Shown here one piece after another: positions 36,737 to 54,408 of a stretch of 56,684 nt of DNA. The DNA is from Motilibacter deserti (lineage in GTDB: Bacteria; Actinomycetota; Actinomycetes; Motilibacterales; Motilibacteraceae): NCBI RefSeq assembly GCF_011250635.1, contig NZ_JAANNP010000015.1, forward strand, positions 1 through 56,684, given 5' to 3'. The position numbers and the translations under genes were made by a program. Position 1 is the first letter of the stretch. Each line of letters opens with the position of its first letter. The notes beneath the pieces were generated by a model. The model searched no databases and was not told where the DNA came from. It saw only the letters and a program-made list of their open reading frames with translations.

Positions 36737-36821
36737 CGGCGTTCCTCCTGTGCGGAGCCCTGGCGGGCCGGTCGTATCGACCTGGCAGATGTCGGAGGCC
36801 CAGCGCGCCGACTTGAGCACC

Positions 36822-37277
36822 TCAGCCCAGCTGCTTGCGGACCTCCGCCGCCACCCGGCCACCCTCGGCGCGGCCCGCGATCCGCGGGTTCAGGACCTTC
36901 ATGACCGCCCCCATGCCCTTGGGCCCCTGCGCGCCGCTCTCGGCCACCGCGGCGGCCACCAGCTCGGCGAGCTCGGCGTCGGACAGCTGAGCCGGCAGGT
37001 AGCGGGCGAGGACCTCGCCCTCGGCCTGCTCGCGCGCCGCGAGCTCGGGCCGGCCGGCGGAGGTGAAGGCGTCGGCCGCCTCGCGCCGCTTCTTGGCCTC
37101 CCGGGTGACGACGGCCAGCGCCTCCTTGTCGTCGAGCTCGCGTGCGCTCTTGCCGGACACGGCCTCCGTCGCGAGGGCCGCGAGCGTCATGCGCAGCGTC
37201 GCGGTCGTCACCTCGTCACGCCCGCGCATCGCCGTCGTGAGGTCGCTGCGCAGGCGCTGCTCCAGCTCGCTGGCCAT
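36822..37277 (-). CDS. GatB/YqeY domain protein
   Basis: A 151-aa protein of the YqeY family. It begins LEQRLRSDLTTAMRGRDEVTTATLRM, contains KKRREAADAFTSAGRPELAAREQAEGEVLARYLP, and ends with GKGMGAVMKVLNPRIAGRAEGG-type sequence (here PKGMGAVMKVLNPRIAGRA). The C-terminal domain is homologous to the tail of the GatB amidotransferase subunit, which binds tRNA; free YqeY proteins have no settled role. GGAAAGGAG precedes the ATG. It is 38 bases downstream of the gamma-glutamyltransferase gene on the same strand. Confidence 0.95.
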   Translation of the reverse strand: MASELEQRLRSDLTTAMRGRDEVTTATLRMTLAALATEAVSGKSARELDDKEALAVVTREAKKRREAADAFTSAGRPELAAREQAEGEVLARYLPAQLSDAELAELVAAAVAESGAQGPKGMGAVMKVLNPRIAGRAEGGRVAAEVRKQLG

Positions 37278-37315
37278 GGACGTGCTCCTTTCCCGGCGCC
37301 CGGCGGCGCACGACC

Positions 37316-38773: not shown

Positions 38774-38871
38774 GCGCGCACTCTAGAGGCCGGCCGGCCG
38801 GGGCGGCCGGTCGGACCAGGCCCGTCGCAATGCGGTCGCGATCTGACCGCTAGCGGCGGCAGGCTGGCCGC

Positions 38872-39450
38872 ATGAGCGATCTGGCGTGGAACCCGCTGCT
38901 CCGCGAGCAGATCACCTGGCACTGGGACAACCAGCTGCGCGCCCGGCTCGACGGGCTGCGCGACGAGGAGTACTTCTGGGAGCCGGCCCCGGGCTGGAAC
39001 GTCCGGCCGCGCGGCACCGGGACCGCGCCCGTGCAGGGCGGCTCGGGCACGATGACGATCGACTTCGCCTTCCCCGAGCCCGACCCGCCGCCCTTCACGA
39101 CCATCGCCTGGCGGCTCGGCCACGTGATCGTCGGGGTGCTCGCGGTGCGCAACGCCACGCACTTCGGCGGCCCGCCCGCGAGCTACCAGTCCTTCGACTA
39201 CGCCGCCACCGCCGACGACGCGCTGGCCCAGCTCGACGCGGCCTACTCGGCCTGGATCGCCGGGGTCGAGTCGCTCGGCGAGAGCGGGCTGCGCCGCCCG
39301 TCGGGGCCGGAGGAGGGGGAGTACGCCGAGCTGCCGCTCGCGACGCTCGTGCTGCACATCTCCCGCGAGCTGATCCACCACCTGTCCGAGGTCTGCCTGC
39401 TGCGCGACCTCTACGGGCACCTGCACCGCGAAACCGAGACCGAGATCTAG
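38872..39450 (+). CDS. DinB-superfamily protein
   Basis: A 192-aa four-helix-bundle protein. Features are WNPLLREQITWHWDNQLRARLDGLRDEEYFWEPAPGWNVRPR at the N-terminus, a conserved WRLGHVIVGVLAVRN helix (His likely a metal ligand), and LVLHISRELIHHLSEVCLLRDLY (His-x3 and HH likely ligands) near the end. Actinobacterial DinB proteins include mycothiol-dependent transferases; that role is possible but not shown. The gene is 28 bases upstream of the VOC gene on the same strand. Confidence 0.88.
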   Translation: MSDLAWNPLLREQITWHWDNQLRARLDGLRDEEYFWEPAPGWNVRPRGTGTAPVQGGSGTMTIDFAFPEPDPPPFTTIAWRLGHVIVGVLAVRNATHFGGPPASYQSFDYAATADDALAQLDAAYSAWIAGVESLGESGLRRPSGPEEGEYAELPLATLVLHISRELIHHLSEVCLLRDLYGHLHRETETEI

Positions 39451-39478
39451 ACCGAGACCGAGCGGAAGGCGGGCTGAG

Positions 39479-39916
39479 ATGGCGCGCGACGTGCAGATCA
39501 CCTTCGACTGCGCCGACCCGGAGGCGCTGGCGACGTTCTGGGCCGACGCCCTGGGCTACGAGCTGCAGGGGCCGCCGCCGGGGTTCGCGTCCTGGGAGCA
39601 GGCGCTCGACGCCTTCGGCGTGCCCCGCGAGCGGCACAACGACGCGCACGCCGTGGTCGACCCGGCCGGGAACAGGCCGCGGCTGTTCTTCCAGCGCGTG
39701 CCCGAGGGCAAGACCGTGAAGAACCGCGTCCACCTCGACGTACGCGCCGCACCGGGGCTGGCGGGCGAGGAGCGGATGGCGGCGCTGGAGAAGGAGGCCG
39801 AGCGGCTGGTCGGCCGCGGCGCGACCCGGCTGGAGCGGCATGAGCCCGCGCCTCCGATGGCGGGCGGGCACATCGTCATGGCCGACCCGGAGGGCAACGA
39901 GTTCTGCCTCGACTGA
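39479..39916 (+). CDS. VOC-family (glyoxalase-like) protein
   Basis: A 145-aa protein with two paired beta-alpha-beta-beta-beta modules. It starts VQITFDCADPEALATFWADALGYELQG, has NRVHLDVRA as the second-module strand with a metal-ligand His, and ends IVMADPEGNEFCLD, the typical Glu-containing terminus. The family covers dioxygenases, glyoxalases and antibiotic-binding proteins, so the substrate cannot be assigned. It probably forms an operon with the DinB gene. Confidence 0.88.
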   Translation: MARDVQITFDCADPEALATFWADALGYELQGPPPGFASWEQALDAFGVPRERHNDAHAVVDPAGNRPRLFFQRVPEGKTVKNRVHLDVRAAPGLAGEERMAALEKEAERLVGRGATRLERHEPAPPMAGGHIVMADPEGNEFCLD

Positions 39917-39950
39917 ACTGGTCGCGGGAAGGTTTGGCGAGCCCGCGAAG

Positions 39951-39977
39951 TTGGCACTCTCGTACCGTGAGTGCTAG
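39951..39977. promoter_or_regulatory. CIRCE element (HrcA operator)
   Basis: TTGGCACTC (39951-39959), nine bases, then GAGTGCTAG (39969-39977). This matches the CIRCE consensus TTAGCACTC-N9-GAGTGCTAA in all but the third and last positions. It lies 45 bases before the hsp20 start codon. Confidence 0.92.
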
Positions 39978-40021
39978 CCCTCCCGGGAGGACCGGGAGGC
40001 GGTTTTCAGGAGGAGTCAGCC

Positions 40022-40549
40022 ATGGCTGTCACCCGTTGGGATCCGTTCACCGCGCTCGCCCGCCTCGACCGCGAGCTGGACTCGTCCTTCGACGAGCTGG
40101 TCCGCCGCGCGTGGGGCTCCGGCCAGCGTGGGACCGCCGGCTACGTCCCGGCCGTCGACATCCGCAAGGACGGCGGTGACGTCGTCATCTCCGTCGAGCT
40201 GCCCGGCGTCGACATCGACAACGACGTGTCCATCGAGGTCGCGAACGGCCGCCTCGCGATCTTCGGCGAGCGCCGCGACGAGCGGACCGCGAGCAGCGAG
40301 CAGGCCGAGCAGGGCAAGGGCGTGCTCGTCCGCGAGCTGCGCTACGGGGCGTTCCGCCGCGAGTTCGCGCTCCCCGAGCACGTCGGGGCCGACGACGTGG
40401 ACGCGACGTACGACCGCGGCATGCTCCGCGTCGTCGTGCACAACGTGGCCAAGCCCGTCCCGGAGCCGCGCCGCATCCAGGTGCGCAGCGCCGAGACGCC
40501 GCGCGAGGTCGGAACGGACCGCACCGTGCAGGGCCAGGTCGAGGCCTGA
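40022..40549 (+). CDS. Hsp20/alpha-crystallin small heat-shock protein
   Basis: A 175-aa ATP-independent chaperone. The N-terminus AVTRWDPFTALARLDRELDSSFDEL is followed by the alpha-crystallin domain (about 45-140) with VDIRKDGGDVVISVELPGVD, GRLAIFGERRDE, FRREFALPEHV and VDATYDRGMLRVVV. A conserved I-x-I/V-like tail (RIQV) and a further 20 residues follow. ATG 40022 has AGGAGGAG upstream. The CIRCE element ahead of the gene predicts HrcA repression and heat induction; hrcA itself is not in the window. Confidence 0.96.
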   Translation: MAVTRWDPFTALARLDRELDSSFDELVRRAWGSGQRGTAGYVPAVDIRKDGGDVVISVELPGVDIDNDVSIEVANGRLAIFGERRDERTASSEQAEQGKGVLVRELRYGAFRREFALPEHVGADDVDATYDRGMLRVVVHNVAKPVPEPRRIQVRSAETPREVGTDRTVQGQVEA

Positions 40550-40568
40550 GCCTCGCGCGCCGCATGAG

Positions 40569-40596
40569 GAAGGGCCGGCCCGCGGGCCGGCCCTTC
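40569..40596 (+). terminator. strong hairpin terminator after hsp20
   Basis: A perfect 28-base palindrome: GAAGGGCCGGCCCG followed by its exact complement. It starts 20 bases after the hsp20 stop and also faces the convergent phosphoribosyltransferase gene ending at 40650. Confidence 0.85.
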
Positions 40597-40649
40597 GTGC
40601 GTTCGCGGACTGCGCGGCCTGTGCGGCCGGGACGCCGGTCGCTCGGTGC

Positions 40650-41303
40650 TCACGCGGCCGGCCCGGCGGCGAGCGCTTGCCTGACCTCGGCGTCGGTGGT
40701 CTGGCGGAAGTCCGCGTAGTGGGCGCCCACGGCCAGGAAGCGCCGCGGCACGTGCAGGCACACGGCGCGGTCGGCCTCCCGCTCGAGGAGGCGGCAGCTC
40801 TCGGCCGCGCCCACCGGGACGGCGACGACGACCGCCAGCGGGCGGAGCCGGCGTACGGCCTGCACCGCGGCCCGCATCGTCGACCCGGTCGCTAGCCCGT
40901 CGTCGACGAGCACCACGTGCTTGCCGGACGGGTCGAGCGGCGGCCGGCCGGCGCGGTACGCCGCCTCCCGCCGCTCCAGCTCGGCCGTCTCCTGCCGCGC
41001 GACCCGCTCGAGCGCCTCGGCCGGCACCTGCAGCCGCCGGACCACGTCGTCGTTGAGGACGCGCACGCCCCCGCCGGCGATCGCGCCCACGGCCAGCTCC
41101 GGCCGGCCCGGGGCGCCCAGCTTGCGGACGACGAACACGTCGAGCGCAGCCCCGAGCGCGGCGGCGACCCCGGCCGCGACCGGCACCCCGCCTCGCGCGA
41201 GCCCGAGCACGACGACGTCCCGGGCCGGAACGACGTCCGCGAGCCGCGCCCCGAGCTCGCGGCCGGCGGCGACGCGGTCGGAGAAGGCCGGCGGAGCCGT
41301 CAG
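40650..41303 (-). CDS. phosphoribosyltransferase-domain protein
   Basis: A PRT-fold protein of about 217 aa. The N-terminus FSDRVAAGRELGARL leads to VVVLGLARGGVPVAAGVAAALG, a flexible loop region, and the PRPP-binding motif HVVLVDDGLATGSTMRAAV. Similar free-standing PRT proteins are often encoded near stress or dormancy genes, and their reaction is unknown. No ATG, GTG or TTG is available at the expected N-terminus. A CTG at 41303 gives MTAPPAFSDR and overlaps the stop of the upstream small gene in a CTGA arrangement, so I take it as the likely start. The true start is uncertain. Confidence 0.85.
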   Translation of the reverse strand: MTAPPAFSDRVAAGRELGARLADVVPARDVVVLGLARGGVPVAAGVAAALGAALDVFVVRKLGAPGRPELAVGAIAGGGVRVLNDDVVRRLQVPAEALERVARQETAELERREAAYRAGRPPLDPSGKHVVLVDDGLATGSTMRAAVQAVRRLRPLAVVVAVPVGAAESCRLLEREADRAVCLHVPRRFLAVGAHYADFRQTTDAEVRQALAAGPAA

Positions 41304-41476
41304 CGCACCGCGCCCGACACCGAGAAGTAGCGGTCGGCAATCGTCTCCGCCTCCTCGAAGCGACGTTCCGCCACCGCTACGGCGAAGCGCCGGGTGGCCC
41401 GCCCGTGCAGGCGGCGTCTGACGAGCACCGGCGTCGACGTCAGAGCCACGAGCAGCAACGCGATCAACAGGAACAC
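41300..41476 (-). CDS. small single-TM protein upstream of the phosphoribosyltransferase
   Basis: A 58-aa protein: MFLLIALLLVALTSTPVLV forms one membrane helix, followed by a basic segment (RRRLHGRATRR) and an amphipathic helix (FAVAVAERRFEEAETIADRYF). GGGGAAGG precedes the GTG at 41476. The stop overlaps the CTG taken as the phosphoribosyltransferase start, which suggests coupling. No family is recognised. Confidence 0.6.
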   Translation of the reverse strand: MFLLIALLLVALTSTPVLVRRRLHGRATRRFAVAVAERRFEEAETIADRYFSVSGAVR

Positions 41477-41692
41477 GGCCTTCCCCTCTGCTGCGCTCGC
41501 CGCGTCCGAGCCCGACGCCCCACCGGTCCCGGCTCGGCACACGCTTCCCGGCAGCCCTCGCCCGGCGGCTGCCCTCGGCCGCAGCTTTCCCGCGCCGAGT
41601 CGCTGCAAGCGCCGGCTCGGCCGCCGAAGCGGGTGGGTGACCGGCGCCTGCGTGGGCAGAGGGGCGGCAGCGGCACCTACCGGAGGACGGAC

Positions 41693-42106
41693 ATGGCGCA
41701 GACCAGCAACGGCCCCGAACTGCTCCCGACGACGGTCGAGCTCGCCCGGGGCGCGAACTACGCGGCGATGAGCACGCTGCTGCCCAGTGGCGCGATCCAG
41801 ACGCAGTACGTGTGGGTCGGCACGGACGGGAAGCGGCTCCTCGTGAACACCGAGGTGCACCGCGCGAAGTTCAAGAACGTGGAACAGGATCCACGGGTCA
41901 CGCTCTGCATCCGGGACGAGGCCGACCCTTACCACTACGCGGAGGTGCGCGGCACGGTGGTGGAGCGGGTGACCGGTCCGGCCGCGAGGCAGAACATCGA
42001 CGAGCTGTCGCAGAAGTACACCGGCAAGCCCTATGACGAGGCCGCGATCTCCAGCGAGCGGGTCATGGTGTGGATCGTTCCCGAGCGGCAGACGATCGCG
42101 GGCTGA
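41693..42106 (+). CDS. PPOX-class (F420-dependent type) oxidoreductase
   Basis: A 137-aa split beta-barrel flavin/deazaflavin-binding protein. Features are YAAMSTLLPSGAIQTQYVWVGTDGKRLLVNTEVHRAKFKNVEQDPRVTLCI, the standard core of the PPOX F420 family, then HYAEVRGTVVERV and a C-terminal strand MVWIVPERQTIAG. CGGAGGA precedes the ATG. Members reduce or oxidise small substrates with F420 (or FMN). The next gene begins six bases after the stop. Confidence 0.92.
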   Translation: MAQTSNGPELLPTTVELARGANYAAMSTLLPSGAIQTQYVWVGTDGKRLLVNTEVHRAKFKNVEQDPRVTLCIRDEADPYHYAEVRGTVVERVTGPAARQNIDELSQKYTGKPYDEAAISSERVMVWIVPERQTIAG

Positions 42107-42111
42107 CCGGC

Positions 42112-42645
42112 ATGGCGACGGACACGCAGACGACGGACGCGCGGTCCCAGAGCATCCGGCTCCCGGGCGTGGTCCTCGGGGTCGGGCTCGGCGGCTTCGT
42201 CGACGGGATCCTGCTGCACCAGATCCTGCAGTGGCACCACCTGCTGACGAGCACGGACACCGACAACATCGGTGTCGCCTACTACCCCCGCGACACCGTG
42301 CACGGCCTGGAGATCAACACCCTCTGGGACGGCATCTTCCACGCCTTCACCTGGCTGAGCGTGCTCGTGGGGCTGGCGTTGCTCTACTCCCGCGTCACGG
42401 CCGGGCGCGGACGGGTCTGGGGCTCGCGCGCGCTGTGGGGGTGGGTCCTCGTCGGGTGGGGCCTGTTCAACCTCGTCGAGGGAGTGCTCGACCACCACAT
42501 CCTCGGCATCCACCACGTCCGCTCCGGTGAGCACCAGACCCTGTGGGACCTCGGGTTCCTCGCCTTCGGGGTTCTCCTCGTCCTCGCCGGCTGGCTCCTG
42601 CAACGGGGCGCGCGGCCGCGCGACGCCCGGCAGGGCACTCCGTGA
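42112..42645 (+). CDS. DUF2243 membrane protein
   Basis: A 177-aa protein with four hydrophobic segments. The first carries the hallmark LGGFVDGILLHQILQWHH; the second is LSVLVGLALLYSRVT, and the third (WVLVGWGLFNLVEGVLDHHILGIHHV) also holds several His. Both His clusters could bind metal or heme. The family is usually encoded beside CtaG-like genes, as here: its stop overlaps the next start in a GTGA arrangement. The function is unknown; a link to cytochrome oxidase biogenesis is inferred from context. Confidence 0.9.
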   Translation: MATDTQTTDARSQSIRLPGVVLGVGLGGFVDGILLHQILQWHHLLTSTDTDNIGVAYYPRDTVHGLEINTLWDGIFHAFTWLSVLVGLALLYSRVTAGRGRVWGSRALWGWVLVGWGLFNLVEGVLDHHILGIHHVRSGEHQTLWDLGFLAFGVLLVLAGWLLQRGARPRDARQGTP

Positions 42646-43445
42646 CGCTGGCCCACAGCGGGCACGCGGACGCCGCCCTGCTCGACGCCACCTCCGCCCT
42701 GGCCCTGGTTGCCGCCGCGGCGCTCGCCGTCGCGTACGCCGTGGCCGCCCGGGCGCGCAGTCGCGAGCCGCGCGGGTGGAGCGCGTGGCGGACCGCGAGC
42801 TTCCTCGCCGGCTGCGCGGTCCTCGGGCTCGTCCTGCTGCCGGGGCTGTCGCCCTATCCGGCCGGGGACTTCCGCTGGCACATGGCCCAGCACCTGCTGA
42901 TCGGGATGGTCGCGCCGCTGCTGCTCGTCCTCGGGGCGCCGATGACGCTGCTGCTGCGCACCCTGCCGCGCCGGCACGGGCGCCTGGTCGGGCGGGCGCT
43001 GCGCTCGTGGCCGGTGCGGCTGGTGGCGAACCCGCTCTCGGCGCTGGCGCTGAACGTGGGCGGGCTCGCGGTCCTCTACTTCACCCCGTTCTACGGCGTG
43101 GTCGAGGCGCACGAGAGCGTGCATGCCCTGGTGCACCTGCACTTCGTGGCGGCGGGATACCTCTTCGCCTGGGTCATCGCGGGGCCGGACCCGGCGCCGC
43201 ACCGGCCCTCGGTGCCCGTGCGGCTCGTGGTCCTGGGGGCGGCCGTCGCTTTCCACGCCTTGATCTCACAGTTGCTCTATGCAGGAATCGGAGTGCAGGT
43301 GCCGGTGGGGGAGGCGGAGCGGCGCGGGGCCGGTGAGCTCATGTACTACGGCGGCGACATCGCCGAGCTGCTGATCGCGCTCGCACTGGTGACGAGCTGG
43401 CGGCCCCGGGCGCGGGCGCGTGCCGTCGCGGCGGCGCAGGCATGA
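42642..43445 (+). CDS. CtaG-like (caa3-type) cytochrome oxidase assembly protein
   Basis: A 267-aa integral membrane protein with about seven helices. WHMAQHLLIGMVAPLLLVLGAP is the family's signature, and HESVHALVHLHFVAAGYLFAWV and FHALISQLLYAG also contain conserved His. It belongs to the caa3_CtaG family, implicated in copper delivery to the oxidase. The GTG at 42642 overlaps the DUF2243 stop, and the TGA overlaps the ATG of the P450 gene. No oxidase subunits are in the window. Confidence 0.92.
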   Translation: MTLAHSGHADAALLDATSALALVAAAALAVAYAVAARARSREPRGWSAWRTASFLAGCAVLGLVLLPGLSPYPAGDFRWHMAQHLLIGMVAPLLLVLGAPMTLLLRTLPRRHGRLVGRALRSWPVRLVANPLSALALNVGGLAVLYFTPFYGVVEAHESVHALVHLHFVAAGYLFAWVIAGPDPAPHRPSVPVRLVVLGAAVAFHALISQLLYAGIGVQVPVGEAERRGAGELMYYGGDIAELLIALALVTSWRPRARARAVAAAQA

Positions 43446-44695
43446 GCAACACACCGCGCGACCGGCTGCCCGACAGCACGCCGGCGCTGCTCGCGCAGGG
43501 CTACGGCTTCCTGGAGCGGCGGCTCCTGCGCCGTGGCCGCGAGGTCGCGGAGGCGCGGCTGCTCCTGCAGCGGACGACGCTGCTGTCGGGCGCCGAGGCG
43601 GCCCGGCTGGTCTACGACCCGGGCAAGTTCGTGCGAGCCGGCGCCATGCCGCGTGTGGTGCAGAAGACGCTGATCGGCGTCGGGGGAGTGCAGTCGCTCG
43701 ACGGGGACGAGTTCCGCGCCCGCAAGGCGATGTTCCTGTCCCTGCTCGGGCCCGAGCGCGCCCCCGAGGTCGCGGGCGAGTTCACCACGGCCTGGCGCGC
43801 CGCCGTGCCGCGGTGGGAGGCCGCAGGGCAGGTCGTCCTGCTCGACGTCGCCGCGGAGGTGCTGTGCCGCGCGGTGTGCCGGTGGGCCGGCGTGGCGCTG
43901 CCCGAGCAGGACGTCCGCCGCCGCACCCTCGGCCTGCGGGCGCTCATCGAGTGCGAGGGGGACCCTCGGCTGGGCTACGTGCGGTCCCGGCTCGCCCGGC
44001 GCCGCTGCGAGGCGTGGGCCGCGGGGCTCGTCGAGCAGGTGCGCGGTCGCGGGGCGTACCCCGACGAGGGAACGGTGCTGCGCACGATCGCGGAGTTCCG
44101 CGGGGCGGACGGGAAGCTGCTGGACGCGCGCACCGCCGCGGTCGAGCTGCTCAACGTCCTCCGGCCGACCGTCGCCATCGCCCGCTACATCGCCCTCGTC
44201 GCGCTGGCGCTGCACGGCCACCCGCGCTGGCTCGCGGCGCTGCGCGCGAGCGACGCCGACGTCGTGCCCTTCGTGCAGGAGGTACGCCGCTACTACCCGT
44301 TCTTCCCGGCGATCCCGGCCCGCGCCCGTGAGCACCTGCGCTGGCGCGGCGTCGAGGTGCCGGCGGGGAGGCGGGTGATGCTCGACGTGCACGGGACCAA
44401 CCTCGACCCGCGCTCCTGGGACCGCCCCGACGAGTTTCGCCCGGAGCGCTTCCGTGCATGGGCCGACGACGCGTACGCCTTCATCCCGCAGGGCGGCGGG
44501 GACCATGCCACGGGGCACCGCTGCCCCGGCGAGTGGGTCACCGTCGAGGTCCTCGCCGCCACCGTGCGGCTGCTCACCCGGGAGATGGAGTACGCCGTCC
44601 CGCCGCAGGATCTGCGCGTCAGCATGCGACGGCTCCCGACCGGGCCGCGCAGCGGGTTCGTGCTCTCGGGGGTGCGTCCCGTCGTGAGCGCCTGA
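43442..44695 (+). CDS. CYP152-like cytochrome P450 (fatty-acid peroxygenase type)
   Basis: A 417-aa P450, the same length as the CYP152 peroxygenases. The heme loop reads FIPQGGGDHATGHRCPGEW, with Cys361 as the axial ligand. The ExxR pair is E280/R283 in EVRRYYPFFP. In helix I, where normal P450s have the acid-alcohol pair, it has LLNVLRPTVAIARYIA; the Arg241-Pro242 pair matches the position used in P450-BSbeta to bind the fatty-acid carboxylate. This predicts H2O2-driven hydroxylation or decarboxylation of fatty acids without a redox partner. The ATG overlaps the CtaG stop by four bases. Confidence 0.93.
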   Translation: MSNTPRDRLPDSTPALLAQGYGFLERRLLRRGREVAEARLLLQRTTLLSGAEAARLVYDPGKFVRAGAMPRVVQKTLIGVGGVQSLDGDEFRARKAMFLSLLGPERAPEVAGEFTTAWRAAVPRWEAAGQVVLLDVAAEVLCRAVCRWAGVALPEQDVRRRTLGLRALIECEGDPRLGYVRSRLARRRCEAWAAGLVEQVRGRGAYPDEGTVLRTIAEFRGADGKLLDARTAAVELLNVLRPTVAIARYIALVALALHGHPRWLAALRASDADVVPFVQEVRRYYPFFPAIPARAREHLRWRGVEVPAGRRVMLDVHGTNLDPRSWDRPDEFRPERFRAWADDAYAFIPQGGGDHATGHRCPGEWVTVEVLAATVRLLTREMEYAVPPQDLRVSMRRLPTGPRSGFVLSGVRPVVSA

Positions 44696-45165: not shown

Positions 45166-45597
45166 CTACGGGCCCGGTCGCACGTCGTCTTCTCGAAACG
45201 TGCGGTTCGGGCGCCGCCCGTAGGCGCGCACGACGCACGGCGGGATGCGCAGCATCGCCTCGGGCGGGTGCTCCTGCCGGTAGCGCTCGGGGCTGAGCCC
45301 GTAGATGCGGCGGAAGCTGGTGGTGAACGACCCGAGGCTGGACAGGCCGACGCGTACGCAGATCTCGCTCACCCGCCAGTCGGTCGTGCGCAGCAGCGTG
45401 GCCGCGCGCTCCAGCCGGCGGGTCAGGAGGTACTGGTGCGGGGACTCGCCGAACGCGGCGCTGAACGCCCGGCTGAAGTGCGCCGGTGACAGGTGCGCGG
45501 CTCGGGCGAGGTCGGCGACGGTGAGCGGGTCGGCGTAGCGCGCGTCGGCGAGGTCCTTGGCCCGGACGAGGTCGCGGATGCGCGTCGCCGGTGGCAC
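45166..45597 (-). CDS. AraC-family transcriptional regulator (short)
   Basis: A 143-aa protein consisting almost only of the double helix-turn-helix DNA-binding domain. It shows LTVADLARAAHLSPAHFSRAFSAAFGESPHQYLLTRRLERAATLL and VSEICVRVGLSSLGSFTTSFRRIYGLSPERYR. About 25 further residues follow. With no sensor domain it may act constitutively, or it may rely on the VOC partner for ligand binding; the second idea is inference. The preceding spacer contains no obvious operator. Confidence 0.92.
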   Translation of the reverse strand: MPPATRIRDLVRAKDLADARYADPLTVADLARAAHLSPAHFSRAFSAAFGESPHQYLLTRRLERAATLLRTTDWRVSEICVRVGLSSLGSFTTSFRRIYGLSPERYRQEHPPEAMLRIPPCVVRAYGRRPNRTFREDDVRPGP

Positions 45598-45758: not shown

Positions 45759-45788
45759 GGCCGCCGGGCACACTCGCCCGGCGGCCGT
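45759..45788 (-). terminator. strong hairpin terminator of the Jet/Mks operon
   Basis: CGGCCGCCGGGC (45759-45770) is the exact complement of GCCCGGCGGCCG (45777-45788), with a 6-base loop. It starts eight bases after the stop of the SMC-like ATPase gene and so closes that operon; no further operon gene follows. Confidence 0.8.
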
Positions 45789-45796
45789 TCGCACGT

Positions 45797-48700
45797 TCAG
45801 GCCTCGTCGACGGCGCGCAGCCGCGTGACGTGGGAGTAGCCCTTCGGCGACTTGGTCACGGTGAGGATCAGCCGCATGGCCGGCTCGAGCGCCGTCACCT
45901 TGTCCAGCGGGGCCCCGACGATCAGCTGGAAGCCCAGCTTCTTCCAGGCCTGCACCGACCGGCCGGCGAACTCCGAGTCGGACTTGATGAAGCCCTCGTC
46001 GAGGAACACCGGGGCGAAGCGCGGCAGCCGGTCCTCGTCGCCCAGCTGGTAGCGCAGCGCCGAGCCGACGATGAACGCCATCAGCTCCTGCGTCTCGCCA
46101 CCGCTCTTGCCACCGAGGTGCGCGTAGGTCGCGAGCTCGCGGCCCTGCCGGTCCACCCGGACGGCAGTGATCTCGACGTGGCGGCGCACGTCGAGGTAGA
46201 CGTCGCGGCTGACGGCCGTAGGGCGGCTGCCCGGGTCGGGCTTGCGGATCAGGCCGATGAACGAACGCAGTTCCAGGAATCGGCGTTCTGCCTCGTCGTC
46301 CGTCGCCTCGGTGGCCAGGCCGGCCGCGAGCGCGGCCAGCTGCTTGCGGAAGCGGGCGACGTCCTCGGAGTGGATAAGCCGCAGCGAGATCCGCAGCCGG
46401 TCGCTCTGGGGGCCGAACGGCAACGTGGAGAGGATGTCGTTGACCGGGTCGAGCCGGGCGCGGATCTCGTCGAGCGCGGCGCCGAAGGCACCGGACAGCG
46501 GCACGAGGTCCTGCCCGCTCCACTCCGACAGGCGTCGCCGCCACTCCTGCCGCCGGTCCGCAAGGCCGGTCGCGACGATCTTGTCGAGGATCTCGCGGTA
46601 GTCGGCGTAGGAGTCGATGCCGACGCCGCGGTTCGGGTCCGGCCAGCGCGACTGGAACTGCTCGAAGATCCCGACCAGGGTCGCGGTCGCCGCGGCGCCG
46701 CGCTCGCGGGCGTGGGCGGTGCGCTCGGACAGCCGGCCGCGCAGCTTGGGCAGGCCCTTCTCGAACTCCCCGATCGTGTCGAGGCTGCCGACCTCAAGGA
46801 GCAGCGCGTCGAGATAGCCCTGCTGCTCCTCGGTCAGCGTCACGACGCCGTCGGCCGCGACGCGGTCCACCTCGCGGGTGGTGGCGTCCTGCTCCTCGCA
46901 GAGCCGCTCGTACTCCGCATCCGCGGCGTGCAGGAGGTCCTTGGCGCGTACGGCCTCGGCCTCCGCGTCGGACAGCCGGGCCTCGATGCGGGCGTGCTGG
47001 GCCGCGAGGGCCGCCAGCACGTCGTCGGCGGCCAGGATGCGCCCCAGCTCGTCCTGCTTGGCCGCGAGCTGGGCCTGCACACCCGCGACGTCGATGTCGG
47101 GCCACTCGGTCGCGAGCAGCCAGCGGTGGGCGCTCTCGAGCCGCCGCAGCCGCTTGGACGCCTCCTCCAGGCCGCGCTCCTGGGCGAGCAGGGTCCCGAG
47201 CTGCTCGTCCAGCTCAGCGATCTCGGCGTCGATCTCGCTGAGCCGGTCGACGGAGGAGAAGCCGATGATCGAGGCGTCGCCGAGCTCGCCGTGCGAGCCG
47301 CGGCGCCCGTTGCGGGTCTGCCCGTTGCGCGTCACGCGCGGGCCGCCGCCGTCGAGCTCGCCCGGCGTCTCGACGCAGAGGTGGTCGGTGCCGCGCCGGG
47401 TGACGCGCTCGCGGATCCACCAGCTGAACGGGCTGTCCTTGTAGAGCAGCTTGCCCGAGACGTAGCGCGCGTCCGCCGGCTCGTCGACGTGCGGCTGCAG
47501 CGCGACGCCCTCGAACTGGATGCGCACGGGCAGCCGGATCGGGTCGATGGCCCGCGAGAGGTGCTGCAGCCGGCGCTCGTCGACGAGCAGGACCCGGGCG
47601 ACCGAGAAGAGCGTGACCTCGGCCGCCTTGCGCCAGCTCGACTCCTCGGGCGCGACGTCGATCAGCTCGGCGACGAACGGCAGCTCCGACGGGTCGATCC
47701 CGGCGGCAGCGGCGATCGCGAGCCGGGCCTCGTGCAGGCGCCGCGGCACGCGTCCGGTGCGCCCGGCGAGCGAGTCGCGCTCGGCCAGCAGCTCGCCGCG
47801 ACGTGCCTGCGTCGGCCAGCCCGCCTCGCGCAGTTGCTGCTGCTGCGCGCTGAGCCCCTCGAGCCGGTCGGGCAGCTCGGTCAGGAACTGCTCGGCCGCG
47901 ACCTGCGCACCCGCGAAGTCCGCTGCGGTGGTCAGGTCGAGCTCGAGGTCGACCGTGCTCGCCGCGAAGCGGGTGTAGCGGCTGTCCGCGGCGTCCTTGG
48001 CGGCCCGGGCGGCCTCGATCTCGGCCTCGAGGCGCTTGATGCTGTCGCCGCCCGCGGCGCGCTGGGACTCCTCGACGTTGGCGAGCTCGCCCTTGAGCCG
48101 GGTCTGCTCCTCGCGCGCGGCGCGGTAGCGCTCGCTGAGCGCCTTCTTCGACTCGAGCGCGTCGCGGGACGCGGCCTCGAGCAGGCGCTCGCGGGTGTGC
48201 AGCTGCCAGACGGAGAACGCCGAGCCCCCGGCGCGCTGGGCGCCGAACGTGTCGATGAGCTGCTCGTCGGCGAGCGCCTTCTCCCGCTCCTCCCACAGCT
48301 GGGGGAGCCGGGCCAGCGCGTGCTGCTTCTCCGCCGCGGTCTGCATCTCCTGGTACGCCGCGTCGAGGTCGTCGAAGTGGCGCGCCGCGCTGTCGGCCGC
48401 GGCGTAGGTCGCGGGCTGCTCGAGCACCATCGACTTGTAGAGGCCGTCGACCGTGCGCACCTGCTGCCCGGCCTGGATGCGCGCCAGCAGCCGGAGCGCC
48501 TTGGCGCCGTTGCCGCCGGCGCCGATGCCGAGCCGGTCGAAGAGCCGCTGGGCGAACTCGGCGTACGTCCCGGCGACGAACATCGCCGGCCAGCGCGCCG
48601 TGAGCGACCGCTTGTCGAACCGCTGCGAGGCGAGCGGCTCGAGCTCGCGCAGGTCGAGCCGACCCTCGATGGTCGCCATCTTCATCGTGACGTCCTTGAA

Positions 48701-49159
48701 CGACGTCGCGGCGCGCGGCACGGAGTAGGCGCGCAGCGCCGTGAACCGGCGGCCGTCGCGGTCGGTGAACGTCATCGCGAGCGCGCCCCACGTCGGGCCG
48801 TCGGCGCCGCGCAGCACCTTGTCGGTGAGCGCCCCGGTCTCGGCCTCGCGGCTGTCGTCGGTCTTGCCGCGCAGGTAGGACAGCAGGTTGCGCTGGTCGG
48901 GGTTGCGGGCCCGGCCGGTCGCCGCGTCGTTGGAGGCGCCGTTGAACGGCGTGTCCGACGGCATCATCAGCGCGAGGTAGGCGTCGAGGATCGTCGACTT
49001 GCCCGTGCCCGAGGCGCCGGACAGCAGCGTGGCCTCGGGGTCGAGCTCGATCGAGGTGTGGCCGTGGAAGCCGCCCCAGTTGACCAGCTGCATGGACTCG
49101 GCGACCCACTGGGCGTCGCCGAGCTCGGCGAAGTCGGGCAGCAGCGCGGGCTGGCTCAT
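45797..49159 (-). CDS. SMC-like ATPase, JetC/MksB type
   Basis: A 1120-aa SbcC/SMC-related ATPase. The N-terminal half-domain has [16 protein letters not shown] and Walker [10 protein letters not shown] (48-56). A long coiled-coil middle contains an LRGKTDD insertion and many Glu/Lys/Arg heptads, plus a probable hinge near 540-620. The C-terminal half-domain has the ABC signature SGGETQ (1019-1024) and Walker B FLDEGF (1052-1057). This is the motor of Wadjet (JetABCD)/MksBEFG/EptABCD complexes, which extrude DNA loops. Its ATG overlaps the KITE-subunit stop. The ATPase appears intact. Confidence 0.93.
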
Positions 49160-50124
49160 GCGCGCTCGTCCTCCGTGTCGTCCTCGGACGCCGTTCCATG
49201 GGTGCCGGAGCCGGCGTCGGCGTCGCTGTCGGCGAGCTCGGGCGCGTCCAGCCACCCGAGGTCCTCGCCCGTGCGGTTGCCGCGGGCGGGGGCCGGCATG
49301 TCCAGCCCGAGCTCCTCGGCGTGCGCCTCGACGGGGGCGGCCGGAGCGCCCTTGCCGTTGAGGTTCTCGAGGGTGTGCAGCAGCTCCTGCAGGCGCGACA
49401 CCGGCAGCAGGACCTCGATGACCGGGGAGACCCGCAGCCGCTGCTCGTCGGCCGTCTTGAGCAGGATGCCGGAGCGCTGCAGCGACTGGACCGCGTTCTC
49501 GACCTTGCGGGCGTCGCCGGCGTGGTCATTGGCGTCGGCCGGGCGGAAGTGCGCGACGGCGGCCTGCAGCTGGTCGCGGTCGACGAGCACCGCGTCGACG
49601 CCGTCGGCCCGGTCGGAGCGGTAGCGCTGGCGCAGGAACACCAGCAGGATCGTCTCCTCGCGGGTGTGCGCGACGTCGTGCAGCAGGGTGGGGAACCGGC
49701 CGTCGCCCTCGGGGCTCGCCTGCCGCTTGAGCGCGACCTGCGCGCGCAGGTCGACGTGCAGCTCGAGGAAGAGGTCGTTGAGCCGCGAGCGCAGCTGCAG
49801 CTGCGAGTCCAGCAGCGTGTGCCACTCGGCCGGGTTCTGCTCCGCGCTGATGTAGCGGTTCTTGAGCAGGTGCACGAGGGTCCGGCGCTGCTCGTAGGTC
49901 AGCGAGCCCTCGTCGCCCTCGAACAGCGACAGGCTGCGCCCCTCGACCTCGGCGTCCTCGACCACGCCGGGGCCGTCGATGAACGCGCTGTCGGCGGAGG
50001 TGGCGTCGTCGGGGGTGCCGGCGGAGGTGGCGTCGTCGGGGGTGCCGTCGACGACCGTGCCGCCGAGCCCGTCCTCGCCGTCGACGGCGTCGGGGCGCGG
50101 GGCTGCCTGGGAGGGCACAGTCAT
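49156..50124 (-). CDS. DUF4194 KITE-type subunit, JetB/MksE type
   Basis: A 322-aa subunit of an SMC-like complex. An unusual acidic N-terminal extension of about 75 residues contains GTPDDATSA twice in tandem. The DUF4194 core begins [31 protein letters not shown] and continues with [27 protein letters not shown] and [29 protein letters not shown], a winged-helix pattern. It ends in another acidic tail, EDDTEDERA. Its start overlaps the kleisin stop (ATGA), and its stop overlaps the ATPase start, so stoichiometric coupled translation is likely. Confidence 0.92.
49994..50047 (-). repeat. perfect 27-bp tandem duplication within the DUF4194 gene
   Basis: Positions 49994-50020 and 50021-50047 are identical. 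They encode GTPDDATSA twice in the acidic N-terminal extension. Exact identity implies a recent slippage event. Confidence 0.9.
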
Positions 50125-51647
50125 GGGCGGGCTCCTTCGACGAGAGCGTCCGCGTCGGACGCGCGCAGCGGGAGGACGGGGACGGTGAAGGCGCGGCGGG
50201 TGCCGTCGGGGCGTACGGCCTCGACCAGCTCCTCGCCGTCGAGCGCAGCCAGCAGTGCCTCGGCCTCGGGGAACCCGTCGCCGTCGTCGGGACGCGCCCC
50301 GAGCAGCAGGTGGACCATGCCGAGCAGCTCGACCGGCCGGCGCAGCCGCTCGGGCAGCGCCGAGAAGACGTCGGCGACGCTCGATCCGTCGGGGGTCATC
50401 GCGGCGATCACGAGCGCCTGGCGCAGCTCGACGAGGCTGGGCCCGCCCTGTCGGCGGATGGCCTCGAGGTCGGGCGCCGCCGGCGCGTTGTCGGACACGT
50501 CCTCGAGCGGGGGCGGGGGCGCGGCGTCGGCCGGGTCCCAGAACCGCTCGCGCAGGTGCTCGACGTCGATGCGCGGCGGCACGAGCTCCACCTCGACGGT
50601 CGCGCGCGGACCGGCGGTCTGCATCCAGGCCTCGAGCTCCTGGTTGATCTGGCGCAGCACGGCGTCGAGCTCGCGGTCCTTGGCGACGTCGTAGCCGACG
50701 ATGTGCGCGCGCAGCGTCGCGGACAGGCGCTGCCGCTCGCCGAGCACGTCGCGGATGCCGTCCTGGATCGTCTTGACCGTACGCCGGAACTCGCGCTGCT
50801 CGCCCGGGGCCAGCGTCTGGGCGAAGGGGTGGGTCAGGATGACGTCGAGGTCCCGGCGCAGGTCGACGAGGAGCGGCTCGTCCCGCAGCAGGGCGAAGGC
50901 GCCCTCGAAGGCGCGGCCCTCCGGTGTCAGCTTCATCAGCGAGTCGGACTTCGCCAGGTATTCGTCGAGCACCTCGACGACCGGGCGCTCCTCGTTGCGG
51001 AAGTCGCTGATGATCTGCCGGTGCATGCCGGCGACGGCTTCCTCGACCCGCTTGAAGTCACTGGGCAGCTGCCCGATGAGCGAGTGCAGGTTGGTGTAGG
51101 AGTCGAGCATGTGGTCGTCGGTGGCCGGCTCGATGTCCCCGCCCTCGGCCAGCCGGTCGCGCTCGGCCGTGAGCTCGGCAATGTGCGCCTCCAGGCGCGC
51201 GATGCGCGTGTCGCGGTCCGGGTCCGCCTCGTTGGCGAAACGGCGCACGACGTCGAGGATCGTGTGGATCCGGGACTCGCTGATCAGAGTCCGGTCCCGG
51301 GTGAGCGACTGGACCAGGTCGAGCGCCTCGAGCGCGTGCGAGGTCAGGCTGTAGAACTCCGCGCCGTCCTCGTCGCGCGAGCGGACCAGCCACTTGTGCG
51401 CCAGCCACTGCATGCACAGCGCGCGGCCCGGCCCCTCGGGGCTCGGCTCACCGGCGAGCTTGAGCTCGTCGAGGTAGTTGTCGACCTGCTGGTGGAGGCG
51501 CTCGGCGGGCACGGTCTTCTGATCACGGGTGAACGTGGTGCGGAACACGGCCAGCACCAGCGGCGCCCACTTGCGGTCGAGCAGCCGCAGCGTCGGCTTG
51601 TCGAACGCGTCGCGGACACGGGTCAGCTCCGCGAGGATGTCGCTCAC
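50121..51647 (-). CDS. DUF3375 kleisin-type subunit, JetA/MksF type
   Basis: A 508-aa protein. It starts [39 protein letters not shown], the conserved DUF3375 opening, then shows [16 protein letters not shown] and a helical central region ([23 protein letters not shown]). A core with [30 protein letters not shown] follows, and a C-terminal winged-helix-like part. In Wadjet/Mks this is the kleisin that bridges the ATPase heads. The GTG at 51647 follows GAGAGGCGGGGG. It is the first gene of the three-gene operon. Confidence 0.93.
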
Positions 51648-51979
51648 GTACCCCCGCCTCTCGTTCCAAGTGTGCCTGACGACGTTAAGCGGTGGGTGCA
51701 AGTCCGTCAGTCCCCGTGTCGCCCGGACGTGGCCCACGTCACGAGGGGGGCGGGCGGGGCCGTGGCCGTCAGCGGAGCGGCCGGGGAGCAGCCCCCGCCG
51801 GGGAGGGCGCCGGCGCCGCGCCGCCGGGGCGGCGGCCATCGTCCCGGGCCGCTCGCCCCGGCGCGGAGCGAGCGCCGGGCCCACGTCCCCCGTGTCGCCC
51901 GCCGCCCCGCGTCCCCGTCCCCGTCCCAGGTCACGCGCCCAGGTCACGGCCCAGGTCACGGCCCAGGTCACGTCCCAGG
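51648..51979. other. 332-base spacer upstream of the Jet/Mks operon
   Basis: No gene is supported. The part next to the kleisin gene (51648-51720) should hold its promoter; a TTGCAC-like -35 is visible on the minus strand near 51697, but no clear -10. The far end contains the 12-bp tandem repeats described separately. The middle is extremely G+C-rich, with short C/G homopolymer runs. Confidence 0.4.
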
Positions 51980-51983
51980 TCAC
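51925..51983 (-). repeat. five 12/13-bp tandem repeats spanning a stop codon
   Basis: CCCAGGTCACG recurs five times with spacings of 13, 12, 12 and 12 bases. On the minus strand each unit supplies TGA: the debranching gene's own stop (51982-51980) is the first, and the next three TGAs are in the same frame. Confidence 0.9.
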
Positions 51984-54109
51984 GTCCCGGCCGCGCGGAG
52001 CACCTCCGGGTCGTGCGTGTCGAGGTCCATGCGCCCTCGACCGATCGGCAGCCCGGAGAGCCGCACGTGGCCCCAGCGGCGGGGCGGCACGGGAGCCACG
52101 CGGAGGTCGCCGTGCGGGAGGCACGGGTCGAGCCGGAGCATGGACGTCAGCAGCGAGAGGGGGGCAGCGGCCGACCACGCCTGCGGGGAGCACGACGTGG
52201 GGTAGGGCACGGGGACGCCGGTGGCCGCTCGCTCGAAGCCGCAGAAGAGCTCGGGCAGCCGGCCGCCGAAGGCGCCGGCGGCCTCGACGACCGCCTCGGC
52301 GATGCGCTGGGCGTGCCCGACGTAGCCGTAGCGCACGAGCCCGGCCACCACGATCGCGTTGTCGTGCGGCCAGACCGAGCCGTTGTGGTAGCTCACCGGG
52401 TTGTACGCGGCGGCCGTGGTCGCGAGCGTGCGGACCCCCCACCCGGAGAACATCGCCGGGGAGAGCAGCGCCTCGGCCACCGCTCCGGCCTTGTCGTCGT
52501 CCGCGACGCCGGACCACAGGCAGTGCCCCTGGTTCGAGGCGAGCGCGTCGACAGGCTTCTTGTCCCGGTCAAGGGCGAGCGCGAAGTAGCCCCGCTCCGG
52601 GAGCCAGAAGCGCTCGTTGAAGCGGCGCTTGAGGTCCGTCGCCCGCGCCTGCCAGTCGGCCCCCGCATCGGTCCCCCCGACGAGTCGGGCGAGGTGCGCG
52701 CGGGCGATGTAGGCCGCGTAGACGTAGCCCTGCACCTCCGCGAGCGCGATGGGGGGATCGGCGAGCCGTCCGTCGGCGAAGGAGATGGAGTCCAGCGAGT
52801 CCTTCCACCCCTGGTTGAGCAGGCCGCGGTCGGTCTTGCGCTGGTACTCCACGAAGCCGTCGCCGTCGGCGTCGCCGAAGCGCTCCACCCAGTCGAGCGC
52901 CCGGTCCGCGGCCGGAAGCAGCGCCGCGACCTCCTCGAGCGGCGCGCCCCACCGCGCCACGCGGTCGAGCAGCATCACGAACAGCGGCGTGGCGTCCACG
53001 CTCCCGTAGTAGACCGAGCTGCCGCCCAGCGCCCGGCTCTCGTCCATGCCGAGCCGGACCTCGTGCAGGATCTTTCCCGGCTCCTCCTCGCTCATCGGGT
53101 CGACGGCCCTTCCCTGGTGCCGGGCCAGGGTCTGCAGGGTCGACAGTGCGAGCCCGGGGTCGAAAGGCAGCGCCATCCAGCTCGCAAGCAACGCGTCCCG
53201 TCCGAACAGCGCCATGAACCAGGGGGCGCCGGCCGCCACGACGTTCGCACCGGGTCGTTCCGGGTCCTGGATGCGCAGCGCGCCCAGGTCGAGGACGCTC
53301 CGCTCGACGGCAGCCTGCAGATCCGGGTCGCCGCAGCGGAATTCGGGAGTTGCCGATCGCCAGTCCTGCATCCGCCGGGTCGGTTCTGCCTGCTCCAACG
53401 GGCGATCGAGTGGGAACGCCGTCGCCACCTCGTGACCAGCCGACGAGGCGAGCACCTCCACGCTCGTCCGCCACTCACCCTGCGGAGCGATGGTTGCGCG
53501 CCACACGAGCGCGCCGGGCAACGCCGTTGCCCCCTGGCCGCGTACGCGGACACCCCGCCGCCGACCGCCGTGGCCCGCGGCGAGGGCGAGCTCCTCGCCG
53601 GCCCACCTGCGCTCCACCTCGGGGGTGGTGCCCCGGCGCCCGTCCTTGACGTCGAAGAGGTCCGCGAAGTCCGCGTCGACGAGCAGCTGCACGGTGACAC
53701 CGGCGGGCTCGCGCCCGTGGTTGCGGACGACGAGGTCTTCGCGGAGCCCGTCGGCCACCATGCGTCGTCGCTCCACCACGAGTGTCGCGTCGTGCACGCC
53801 GGGCCGGGGAGCGGCGCGCGTGAGAAAGGTGGCCTCGAACGGCTCGCCGAGGACGACGGCGAGCGGCTCCACCGGCTCGTCGTCCACGAGCAGTCGCCAC
53901 GTCGAGACGATGCGGTTGTCGAGGAAGAACACGCCGTGCGGGCGGTGGGCGGAGATGTCGCCGGCCCGGTTGCTCACGCAGAAGGAGGAGCCTTCGACGA
54001 CCGTGACGTCGTCGGCGGGGGCCGGCGGGGGCGTTGCGGTGGAGGCGCTGCCGAGCTCGGCGGGGTCGAACGCTGCGTCGGTGGGCCGGGTGGCAAGGGT
54101 GTCGGTCAT
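51980..54109 (-). CDS. amylo-alpha-1,6-glucosidase (glycogen-debranching-like) protein
   Basis: A 709-aa protein with two domains. The N-terminal GDE_N-type beta domain (about 45-260) opens VVEGSSFCVSNRAGDISAHRPHGVFFLDNRIVSTWRL. The (alpha/alpha)6 catalytic domain of the GH15/GH63-like clan shows GAPWFMALFGRDALLASW, RTLQTLARHQG-like sequence, GKILHEVRLG, DATPLFVMLL, YQRKTDRGLLNQGWKDS and NPVSYHNGSVWPHDNA. Substrates in this group include glycogen side chains and small glucosides. There is no signal peptide. Its ATG overlaps the stop of the small membrane gene upstream. Confidence 0.92.
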   Translation of the reverse strand: MTDTLATRPTDAAFDPAELGSASTATPPPAPADDVTVVEGSSFCVSNRAGDISAHRPHGVFFLDNRIVSTWRLLVDDEPVEPLAVVLGEPFEATFLTRAAPRPGVHDATLVVERRRMVADGLREDLVVRNHGREPAGVTVQLLVDADFADLFDVKDGRRGTTPEVERRWAGEELALAAGHGGRRRGVRVRGQGATALPGALVWRATIAPQGEWRTSVEVLASSAGHEVATAFPLDRPLEQAEPTRRMQDWRSATPEFRCGDPDLQAAVERSVLDLGALRIQDPERPGANVVAAGAPWFMALFGRDALLASWMALPFDPGLALSTLQTLARHQGRAVDPMSEEEPGKILHEVRLGMDESRALGGSSVYYGSVDATPLFVMLLDRVARWGAPLEEVAALLPAADRALDWVERFGDADGDGFVEYQRKTDRGLLNQGWKDSLDSISFADGRLADPPIALAEVQGYVYAAYIARAHLARLVGGTDAGADWQARATDLKRRFNERFWLPERGYFALALDRDKKPVDALASNQGHCLWSGVADDDKAGAVAEALLSPAMFSGWGVRTLATTAAAYNPVSYHNGSVWPHDNAIVVAGLVRYGYVGHAQRIAEAVVEAAGAFGGRLPELFCGFERAATGVPVPYPTSCSPQAWSAAAPLSLLTSMLRLDPCLPHGDLRVAPVPPRRWGHVRLSGLPIGRGRMDLDTHDPEVLRAAGT

Positions 54110-54408
54110 GGCGTCGGGCAGAGGTCTGTCGGGTCGGGCTGGTCGGTCGCGTCGGGCTGGTCGGACGGGTCGGATCGGCCGGATGGGGCGGGTGGGCCGG
54201 AGGGGTCGCATCGGCCGGGAGGCGCAGCGGTGCCGGTCGTGGGGCGCCGCGCCCCGGTGGGCGCGGCCGCGGCCAGCTGGGCGAGCGCGGCGAGCGCCCG
54301 CTGGGCCTTGCGGTCCTCGCGAGGGCGCTCGGCCGCCCACGACGTCACCAGTTGCAGCATCCAGCCCACGAGGACGAGGTACGCGGCGGTGAGGGTGAGC
54401 CCGGCCAT
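54106..54408 (-). CDS. small membrane protein with Asp/Pro repeat tail (hypothetical)
   Basis: A 100-aa protein. One N-terminal helix (MAGLTLTAAYLVLVGWMLQLV) is followed by a basic stretch and a low-complexity tail with repeated DPSG, SDPSD, ATDQPDPTD units. The TGA overlaps the ATG of the debranching-enzyme gene (ATGA), which supports translation. It begins three bases after the GT4 gene stop on the same strand. It may tether or regulate the enzyme at the membrane, which is only inference. Confidence 0.65.
   Translation of the reverse strand: MAGLTLTAAYLVLVGWMLQLVTSWAAERPREDRKAQRALAALAQLAAAAPTGARRPTTGTAAPPGRCDPSGPPAPSGRSDPSDQPDATDQPDPTDLCPTP

Follow-up and report, generated by a model that had tools for sequence, protein, structure and literature searches.

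The closest described relatives of the locus considered here are the type I Wadjet systems, also called MksBEFG or EptABCD, which are known from Corynebacterium glutamicum (MksBEFG) and from Pseudomonas aeruginosa PA14 and Escherichia coli GF4-3 (JetABCD). In C. glutamicum the four-subunit complex acts on plasmids (PMC7083940; PMC10123090), and null alleles of mksG and mksF alter plasmid copy number in the same way as a deletion of mksB (PMC10123090). For the MksBEF complex of P. aeruginosa a role in chromosome organisation is assumed (PMC7083940), and an MksB protein favours long-range contacts of the chromosome in Borrelia, an organism without MksE and MksF (PMC10406323). A review further speculates that a defence complex resembling Wadjet was the ancestor of MukBEF- and MksBEF-type condensins (PMC10586767). 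The stretch examined here, hereafter the window, comprises 56,684 nucleotides of Motilibacter deserti (assembly GCF_011250635.1, contig NZ_JAANNP010000015.1) and carries on its minus strand, at 51647-45797, an operon jetA-jetB-jetC that has the same gene order and overlapping genes as type I Wadjet and specifies the core subunits of a type I Wadjet/MksBEF complex, namely kleisin, KITE and SMC-ATPase. The operon is intact, families of the JetD nuclease are absent, a sister lineage carries JetD, jetD is present or absent at one and the same locus among relatives, and all three subunits are under purifying selection. Probably the best explanation of these findings is that the Wadjet motor has been retained as a cleavage-independent, MksBEF-like accessory loop extruder beside the canonical Smc.

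The first gene, jetA (mksF; 50121..51647, minus strand), starts at GTG and encodes a DUF3375 kleisin-like subunit of 508 aa that matches PF11855 at 358 bits over 13-492 and PADLOC JetA1 at 600 bits, and that finds the JetA structure 8q72 in the PDB at E 6.6e-18 from its single sequence. The second, jetB (mksE; 49156..50124, minus strand), encodes a DUF4194 KITE-like subunit of 322 aa (PF13835, 126 bits; PADLOC JetB1, 301 bits); its single sequence found no JetB in the PDB, and a profile of 25 JetBs matched the JetB structure 8dk1 at E 2.2e-19. The third, jetC (mksB; 45797..49159, minus strand), encodes an SMC-like ATPase of 1120 aa, which matches PADLOC JetC1 at 1328 bits over residues 14-1118, Pfam SbcC_Walker_B/AAA_29 and, from the single sequence, the JetC structure 8dk2 at E 4.2e-52, as against E 3.8e-05 only for MukB in the PDB. 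Its Walker A (GASGTGKS), signature (KSGGE) and Walker B (VFLDEGF) motifs are intact, and both 4-base ATGA overlaps, jetA/jetB and jetB/jetC, were confirmed. A preliminary description of this DNA, made from the letters alone, had proposed just such a set of DUF3375, DUF4194 and SMC-like ATPase genes with 4-base overlaps and intact ATPase motifs, and the Pfam and PADLOC matches, the coordinates and the motifs read in JetC bear it out. The window's JetB also has, N-terminal to its DUF4194 domain, an LFEGDEG motif at residues ~67-73. LFxGDxG is kept, with few changes, in the JetBs of the window's larger clade, whether or not JetD accompanies them, and RFDGD, a related form, is seen in further clades that are mostly nuclease-less. 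Considered as a candidate JetD-docking motif, LFxGDxG could not be matched through the PDB alignment to the IFDR motif named in a review, and no claim is made for it.

The assembly searched for a JetD-type nuclease measures 4.99 Mb in 269 contigs and is 98.7% complete. Within the operon jetD is absent, jetC being followed by a hairpin and an AraC-type gene. Across the whole genome there was no match to JetD_C (PF09983), to DUF3322, to DUF2399 (PF09664, likewise without a match in the congener G001) or, as a protein query, to the JetD of the nearest JetD-bearing relative, G073; G001 gave a single DUF3322 match, at 12.6 bits and below the cut-off. DUF2399 is taken here to be the JetD of Wadjet type III. 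The sensitivity of the JetD_C search is adequate, since it detects C. glutamicum and, at 105-130 bits, JetDs from the larger clade around the window; the searches as a whole cover JetD-type families in 98.7% of the genome, with the missing 1-2% and other nuclease families outside their reach. A decayed jetD in the window or in G001 was considered and rejected, tblastn with the G073 JetD giving chance-level matches only (E 4.6 or worse). The preliminary description had called the operon a complete JetABC without JetD and had proposed a hunt for JetD homologues through the rest of the genome; with that hunt negative for all four queries, the absence of JetD-type nucleases extends genome-wide. 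Because no JetD/MksG was found in operon or genome, JetD-mediated plasmid cleavage as described cannot occur here.

Relatives of the operon are patchily distributed in the class, and their nuclease content varies. In a sample of 393 genomes from the class, 70 have a DUF3375 match; 71 operons were fetched and used to build JetA, JetB, JetC and JetD profiles, weak or fragmentary matches being left aside (G004, G062, G076, G207, G265, the second of G188 and of G281, and the second site of G326). The resulting JetC tree, a quick one with support from the Shimodaira-Hasegawa-like approximate likelihood ratio test (SH-aLRT), holds 72 rows: 70 of the 71 loci (L061 had no JetC match), the window and one Mycobacterium. 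An adjacent JetD is present in 30 rows and missing from 42, the two states are interleaved, and the tree requires eight changes of jetD state, equal to the number forced by supported branches. For 35 of the 42 nuclease-less operons, the window's included, the genome is without JetD_C above the cut-off, and for the other seven JetD_C lies elsewhere in the genome. The sole congener compared, G001, has a JetC 90% identical to that of the window and no JetD; next comes G073, from another family, whose JetC is 72% identical and whose jetD overlaps jetC by four bases, and beyond it, with weaker support, lie two nuclease-less operons and one that bears JetD. A JetC scan of genome contigs turned up just one relative, in a Mycobacterium, and JetD is present there. 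The preliminary description had raised the case of close relatives with jetD beside the operon and a loss in this strain only: the first half holds, G073 having an adjacent jetD, but the second does not, as G001 and many other lineages also are without jetD, and its loss is therefore no single-strain defect. The JetD tree shares its major groups with the JetC tree, including one of JetDs from the window's larger clade, the exceptions being the Mycobacterium row, which shifts with weak support, and the JetD of L155 (G434). Since the one tree largely mirrors the other, jetD has probably travelled with its own JetABC and then been lost, as opposed to having been acquired anew at one position time after time; congruence and parsimony indicate that it was probably ancestral and lost repeatedly. 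Four JetD_C matches in the survey have no DUF3375 match just upstream (G145:C11:189415-189816; G494:C1:2033303; G493:C28:339; G576:C381:2599) and may represent nucleases on their own, operons cut at a contig end or Wadjet systems of another type.

The genus g41, represented by 215 genomes, provides the densest sample, with a DUF3375 match in 129, none in 86, and a JetD_C match in 34. When its 144 operons are ordered by DUF3375 score, all 16 above 390 bits have JetD ~4.6 kb downstream, as do six of the eight below 340 bits, whereas between 340 and 390 bits only seven of 120 have an adjacent JetD and 113 do not; for 99 of these 113 the genome is without JetD_C among the matches listed. The 340-390-bit class is present as one operon per genome in 120 of the 215 genomes and never as two, where a Poisson spread would, by hand arithmetic, give ~23 two-operon genomes; this single-copy pattern could reflect vertical inheritance with loss, or mutual exclusion. 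From this genus 60 loci were fetched and 79 rows placed in one FastTree tree, which includes 62 of the 120 operons of that class and leaves out L159, L160, L161, L162, L175 and L207 (divergent, broken or truncated) and L082 (which runs off its contig). Fifty-nine of the 62 form the sister group of a nine-row clade that contains the window, and three belong to a ten-row clade farther away; the nine rows divide into five operons with JetD (four from g41, and G073) and four without (the window, G001, G188 and G325). The most direct view of a change in jetD comes from L166, which is without the gene and whose jetABC is ~90% identical to that of L150 and L152, which have it, in flanking DNA largely conserved on both sides. 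L166 does not have a segment of ~1.15 kb (L150 11639-12785) that takes in almost the whole of jetD, its side of the alignment passing straight from 11605 to 11610; further insertions and deletions lie farther out to either side. As L150 is the sister of L166 in the JetC tree, and L152, L075 and L154, which surround the two, carry jetD like L150, deletion of jetD in L166 is the simplest reading. At a second locus, a 1.24-kb jetD stretch of L151 is absent from L168 and L183 with the flanks conserved, the direction of this change not being fixed by the tree.

Where the nuclease is gone, purifying selection persists on all three subunits of the three-gene operons. Between the window and G001, the ratio of nonsynonymous to synonymous divergence (dN/dS) is 0.11 for jetA, 0.26 for jetB and 0.16 for jetC. 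The medians for 15 nuclease-less pairs from several clades are 0.148, 0.248 and 0.143, respectively, compared with 0.184, 0.185 and 0.247 (and 0.246 for jetD) for 11 JetD-bearing pairs; as the pairs share rows and differ in saturation, these medians are descriptive. In L166 the dN/dS of jetC against its sisters is 0.131-0.135, unchanged from the 0.129 between the two that have jetD, and that of jetB (0.157 and 0.303) falls on either side of 0.243; its loss of jetD is probably recent. Conserved positions were also compared, taking those common to all but at most one of 15 JetD rows and checking them in 64 nuclease-less rows, mostly from g41 and not independent. The same residue occurs in at least 90% of the nuclease-less rows at 288 of 299 positions (63 of 63 in JetA, 33 of 38 in JetB and 192 of 198 in JetC), and the four positions that drop under 70% are replaced by similar residues; hardly any surface relaxation after loss of jetD was thus seen over these 299 positions. 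Walker A is present in all 42 nuclease-less rows. The only one without a visible signature and Walker B is L082, at its contig end, and other rows that fail the strict Walker B pattern have it intact as DEAL.

As the favoured explanation has it, a lineage of type I Wadjet (JetABCD/MksBEFG) operons would have lost the JetD nuclease, and the remaining JetABC would have been kept as a working, ATP-driven SMC complex. By analogy with the known biochemistry of JetABC and MksBEF, such a complex would bind DNA and extrude loops with no cutting, and it would serve as an accessory MksBEF-like condensin alongside the canonical Smc. Its main substrate might be the chromosome rather than plasmids, a point put weakly because the operon has the character of an accessory set of genes that is partly mobile. 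Several considerations weigh against this explanation. Loop extrusion by a nuclease-less Wadjet of this clade is presumed from relatives, and the nuclease-bearing C. glutamicum relative, in the text available, is described as having no effect on chromosome folding (PMC7083940). In the window's immediate clade the JetD-bearing rows outnumber the nuclease-less ones, and the large nuclease-less g41 group is the sister of that clade, not part of it. The 79-row tree needs at least 10 changes if regain is allowed and 17-24 losses if it is forbidden, and the JetC of L155 (G434) groups with g41 while its JetD groups with those of the window's closer relatives, so that this JetD may be a regain or a replacement. 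As for constraint, JetB appears less constrained without JetD, as the medians above indicate, JetC has a raised dN/dS of 0.33 and 0.38 in two nuclease-less g41 pairs, and jetA of L166 has higher values (0.143-0.162) than the 0.083 between its sisters; the unrelaxed surfaces would also fit some other partner in the place of JetD. Finally, the patchiness of the operon, the turnover of its flanks with distance and a plasmid-borne relative suggest an accessory, defence-like gene set.

The last of these points bears on the alternative that survives best, although it is an unlikely one: nuclease-free plasmid control, in which JetABC would sense small circular DNA by complete extrusion and then compact, silence or mis-segregate it, somewhat in the manner of eukaryotic Smc5/6 on circular viral DNA. 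The core would be the same circular-DNA sensor as in Wadjet, with almost no position relaxed, and its distribution is patchy and partly mobile. Synonymous divergence between the window and G001 is 0.36-0.42 for jetABC, compared with 0.55-0.82 for most neighbours that are clear orthologs, 0.24 for Hsp20 and 0.54 for Smc; three further open reading frames (ORFs) with partial or poor alignments (0.13-0.36) are not informative. The comparison with Smc draws on 25 Smc proteins, for 18 of which a JetC partner is at hand, and on a partial Smc of G073. The window and G073 share 72% identity in JetC and 55%, over a partial stretch, in Smc, compared with 49% and 62% for G178 and 53% and 48% for G325. 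The excess of JetC over Smc identity suggests horizontal transfer between the window and G073 lineages; exchange within the genus may possibly have occurred as well. As a test of vertical inheritance, JetC and Smc identities within eight g41 genomes correlate only moderately (Spearman 0.42 over 28 non-independent pairs). Among 58 g41 loci, same-side flanking DNA is common to 19 of 24 pairs at 90% or higher JetC identity, to 29 of 131 pairs at 80-90% and to 30 of 1024 at 70-80%. A JetABC of 44% identity without annotated JetD lies on a 220-kb circular plasmid of Mycolicibacterium fortuitum (L210, CP089609.1, 5770-11339), and this, too, would suit plasmid control, but its DUF3375 gene is annotated as two overlapping pieces. 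A relative at 36.5% identity, with JetD, is found on a linear Rhodococcus plasmid, and a third relative, without annotation, on a Rhodococcus jostii plasmid. Nuclease-free plasmid control is disfavoured by C. glutamicum, where mksG and mksF nulls resemble the mksB deletion and the core alone, as far as the available text of that study goes, has no measurable control of the plasmid concerned (PMC10123090).

More doubtful still is the supply of a nuclease of another family in trans from elsewhere in the genome. Positions of the JetD-bearing operons stay conserved without JetD, as continued docking would lead one to expect, and the searches address JetD-type families only. DUF2399 was above the cut-off in two of 22 genomes tested, namely nuclease-less G325 (G325:C30:64067-64516, 133 bits), where the gene lies ~300 kb from JetABC on the same contig, and G073 (G073:C14:101618-102049, 153 bits), which bears JetD; the former would suit such a supply, as would the seven of 42 nuclease-less operons whose genomes have JetD_C elsewhere, but the latter would not, and neither would the negative JetD_C, DUF3322 and DUF2399 searches of the window's genome or the 35 operons in genomes without JetD_C above the cut-off. 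The suggestion of the preliminary description that the operon borrows a nuclease encoded elsewhere is accordingly unlikely as far as a JetD homologue is concerned. A replacement effector was looked for by comparing flanking ORFs all-against-all at the first 72 loci, in clusters of at least three loci of which the 45 largest were listed, the 60 later g41 loci lying outside this comparison, and no family keeps turning up immediately next to nuclease-less operons from more than one lineage. JetD itself forms the largest cluster (21 loci); the rest consist of widespread transporter or oxidoreductase families found at varying distances, or reflect within-genus synteny. At one locus, L083 (G092), the frame directly past jetC (after 11764) looks SbcD-like by eye and is followed by a large ORF at 12917-15922 that has a weak match to the JetC profile and is perhaps SbcC; the arrangement was noticed there alone.

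Decay, in which loss of the nuclease would be followed by that of the remaining genes, has very little probability. JetC is in pieces in nuclease-less G453 and G596, as are JetA and JetC in G552, whose genome is 61% complete; a broken jetA, by frame split or internal stop, is also found in JetD-bearing G073 (L110, 5935-7496) and G425 (L154, 5878-7464, both in operon-oriented coordinates), where it may be a real inactivation or a sequencing error. The dN/dS of 0.11-0.26 between congeners, the constraint in 15 nuclease-less pairs, the conserved hairpin, the intact ATPase motifs and the persistence of 113 of 120 g41 operons of the related score class without adjacent JetD all stand against decay. 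The least credible alternative, anticipated in the preliminary description as a housekeeping condensin, is a core complex replacing or backing up Smc-ScpAB as essential chromosome organiser, which the single-copy pattern in g41 and the locus kept in 19 of 24 close pairs would suit, but which fits poorly with the canonical Smc in all 60 different JetABC genomes tested (30 including the window's, where it scores 950 bits at G000:C234, and 30 further g41 genomes), with the 86 of 215 g41 genomes and the other three family genomes, G002-G004, that have no DUF3375 match above cut-off (G004 has one below it), with flanks that turn over among distant relatives and with the signs of horizontal transfer involving G073.

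A hairpin with a 12-bp perfect stem (45787-45776 / 45769-45758, minus strand; fold z-score -2.8 versus shuffles) starts nine bases past the jetC stop, not eight as the preliminary description had it while giving the stem correctly. It is also present in G001 (z -3.9), with nucleotide homology continuing through it, and is probably the operon terminator, though a T-run behind it is absent. Next comes, as that description had said, an unrelated AraC-type regulator (45166..45597, minus strand; PF12833, 86 bits), which is outside the system because it has no ortholog on the congener's contig, G001:C14. On the other side, 54 bases upstream of jetA (51648..51701, minus strand) are homologous to G001 by blastn and probably represent, judging from sequence, a leader or promoter region; the match as a whole runs from window 45759-51701 to G001:C14 20160-26040 at 87.3%. 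The upstream ORF for a glycogen-debranching-like enzyme (51980..54340, minus strand; PF14742, 141 bits) is by synteny not part of the system, since in G001 it flanks jetABC on the opposite side. Collinearity with G001:C14 holds over window 30608-44676, but jetABC has switched sides relative to a block of debranching-enzyme, glycosyltransferase, MerR and STAS genes. The window contig ends (56684) just past the STAS gene, at the spot that jetABC occupies in G001 (G001:C14 19975-20160). A local move of the operon between the congeners is likely; a collapsed duplicate or draft misassembly may be involved instead. An IS110-family transposase (PF02371, PF01548) lies at window 1340-3007, near the opposite contig end. 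As to a defence island, ten other window ORFs gave no PADLOC match, several of them mechanical calls that are perhaps not genes.

A bolder proposition, held tentatively, is that in many actinomycete species the Wadjet motor also serves a function that needs no nuclease and outweighs plasmid cutting in value, with JetD dispensable and repeatedly deleted and JetABC maintained by selection and acting either on circular DNA by extrusion alone, through silencing or mis-segregation, or as an accessory chromosome organiser. If that were true, these operons would be present-day intermediates of the proposed transition from Wadjet to MksBEF/MukBEF. Sister species that differ in jetD at one locus with JetABC conserved make that transition directly testable, and with it the question of what a Wadjet motor does without its nuclease. 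A practical consequence is that a JetABC annotation should be taken for plasmid defence only where JetD has been found as well, given the 113 of 120 g41 operons of the 340-390-bit class that have none adjacent. Nuclease-less MksBEF is already known, as is a JetABC without JetD in Paenarthrobacter lasiusi (PMC11719660). Repeated loss of jetD with JetABC kept was not described in the literature titles or abstract openings searched, most subscription papers lying outside that scope.

Set beside the known systems, the window's operon is closest to type I Wadjet, as its subunits are detectably homologous to the solved JetA, JetB and JetC and its sister in G073 is a four-gene version (with jetA frame-split), and differs from it in being without JetD/MksG in operon or genome. 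It is likewise distinct from Wadjet type III, with its DUF2399 JetD, for want of a PF09664 match. The JetA-JetB-JetC 'Wadjet' of the actinobacterium Paenarthrobacter lasiusi S21 is also without JetD, in a genome that has a separate full type I system; it is classed there as a defence system, and the missing nuclease receives no comment in the portion of the paper available (PMC11719660). With MukBEF the operon shares a Muk-type SMC/kleisin/KITE architecture and a weak MukB N-terminal match (28.5 bits), but the similarity to MukB is marginal, and MukBEF replaced Smc-ScpAB in its hosts (PMC10586767) whereas the window's genome retains Smc. A further likeness, drawn from published description (PMC4255302, PMC7083940), is to MksBEF of P. 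aeruginosa PAO1, the same three-subunit Muk-like set without a nuclease beside a canonical Smc, from which the window's operon differs in belonging to an actinomycete clade with JetD-bearing sisters, within which the nuclease was probably lost.

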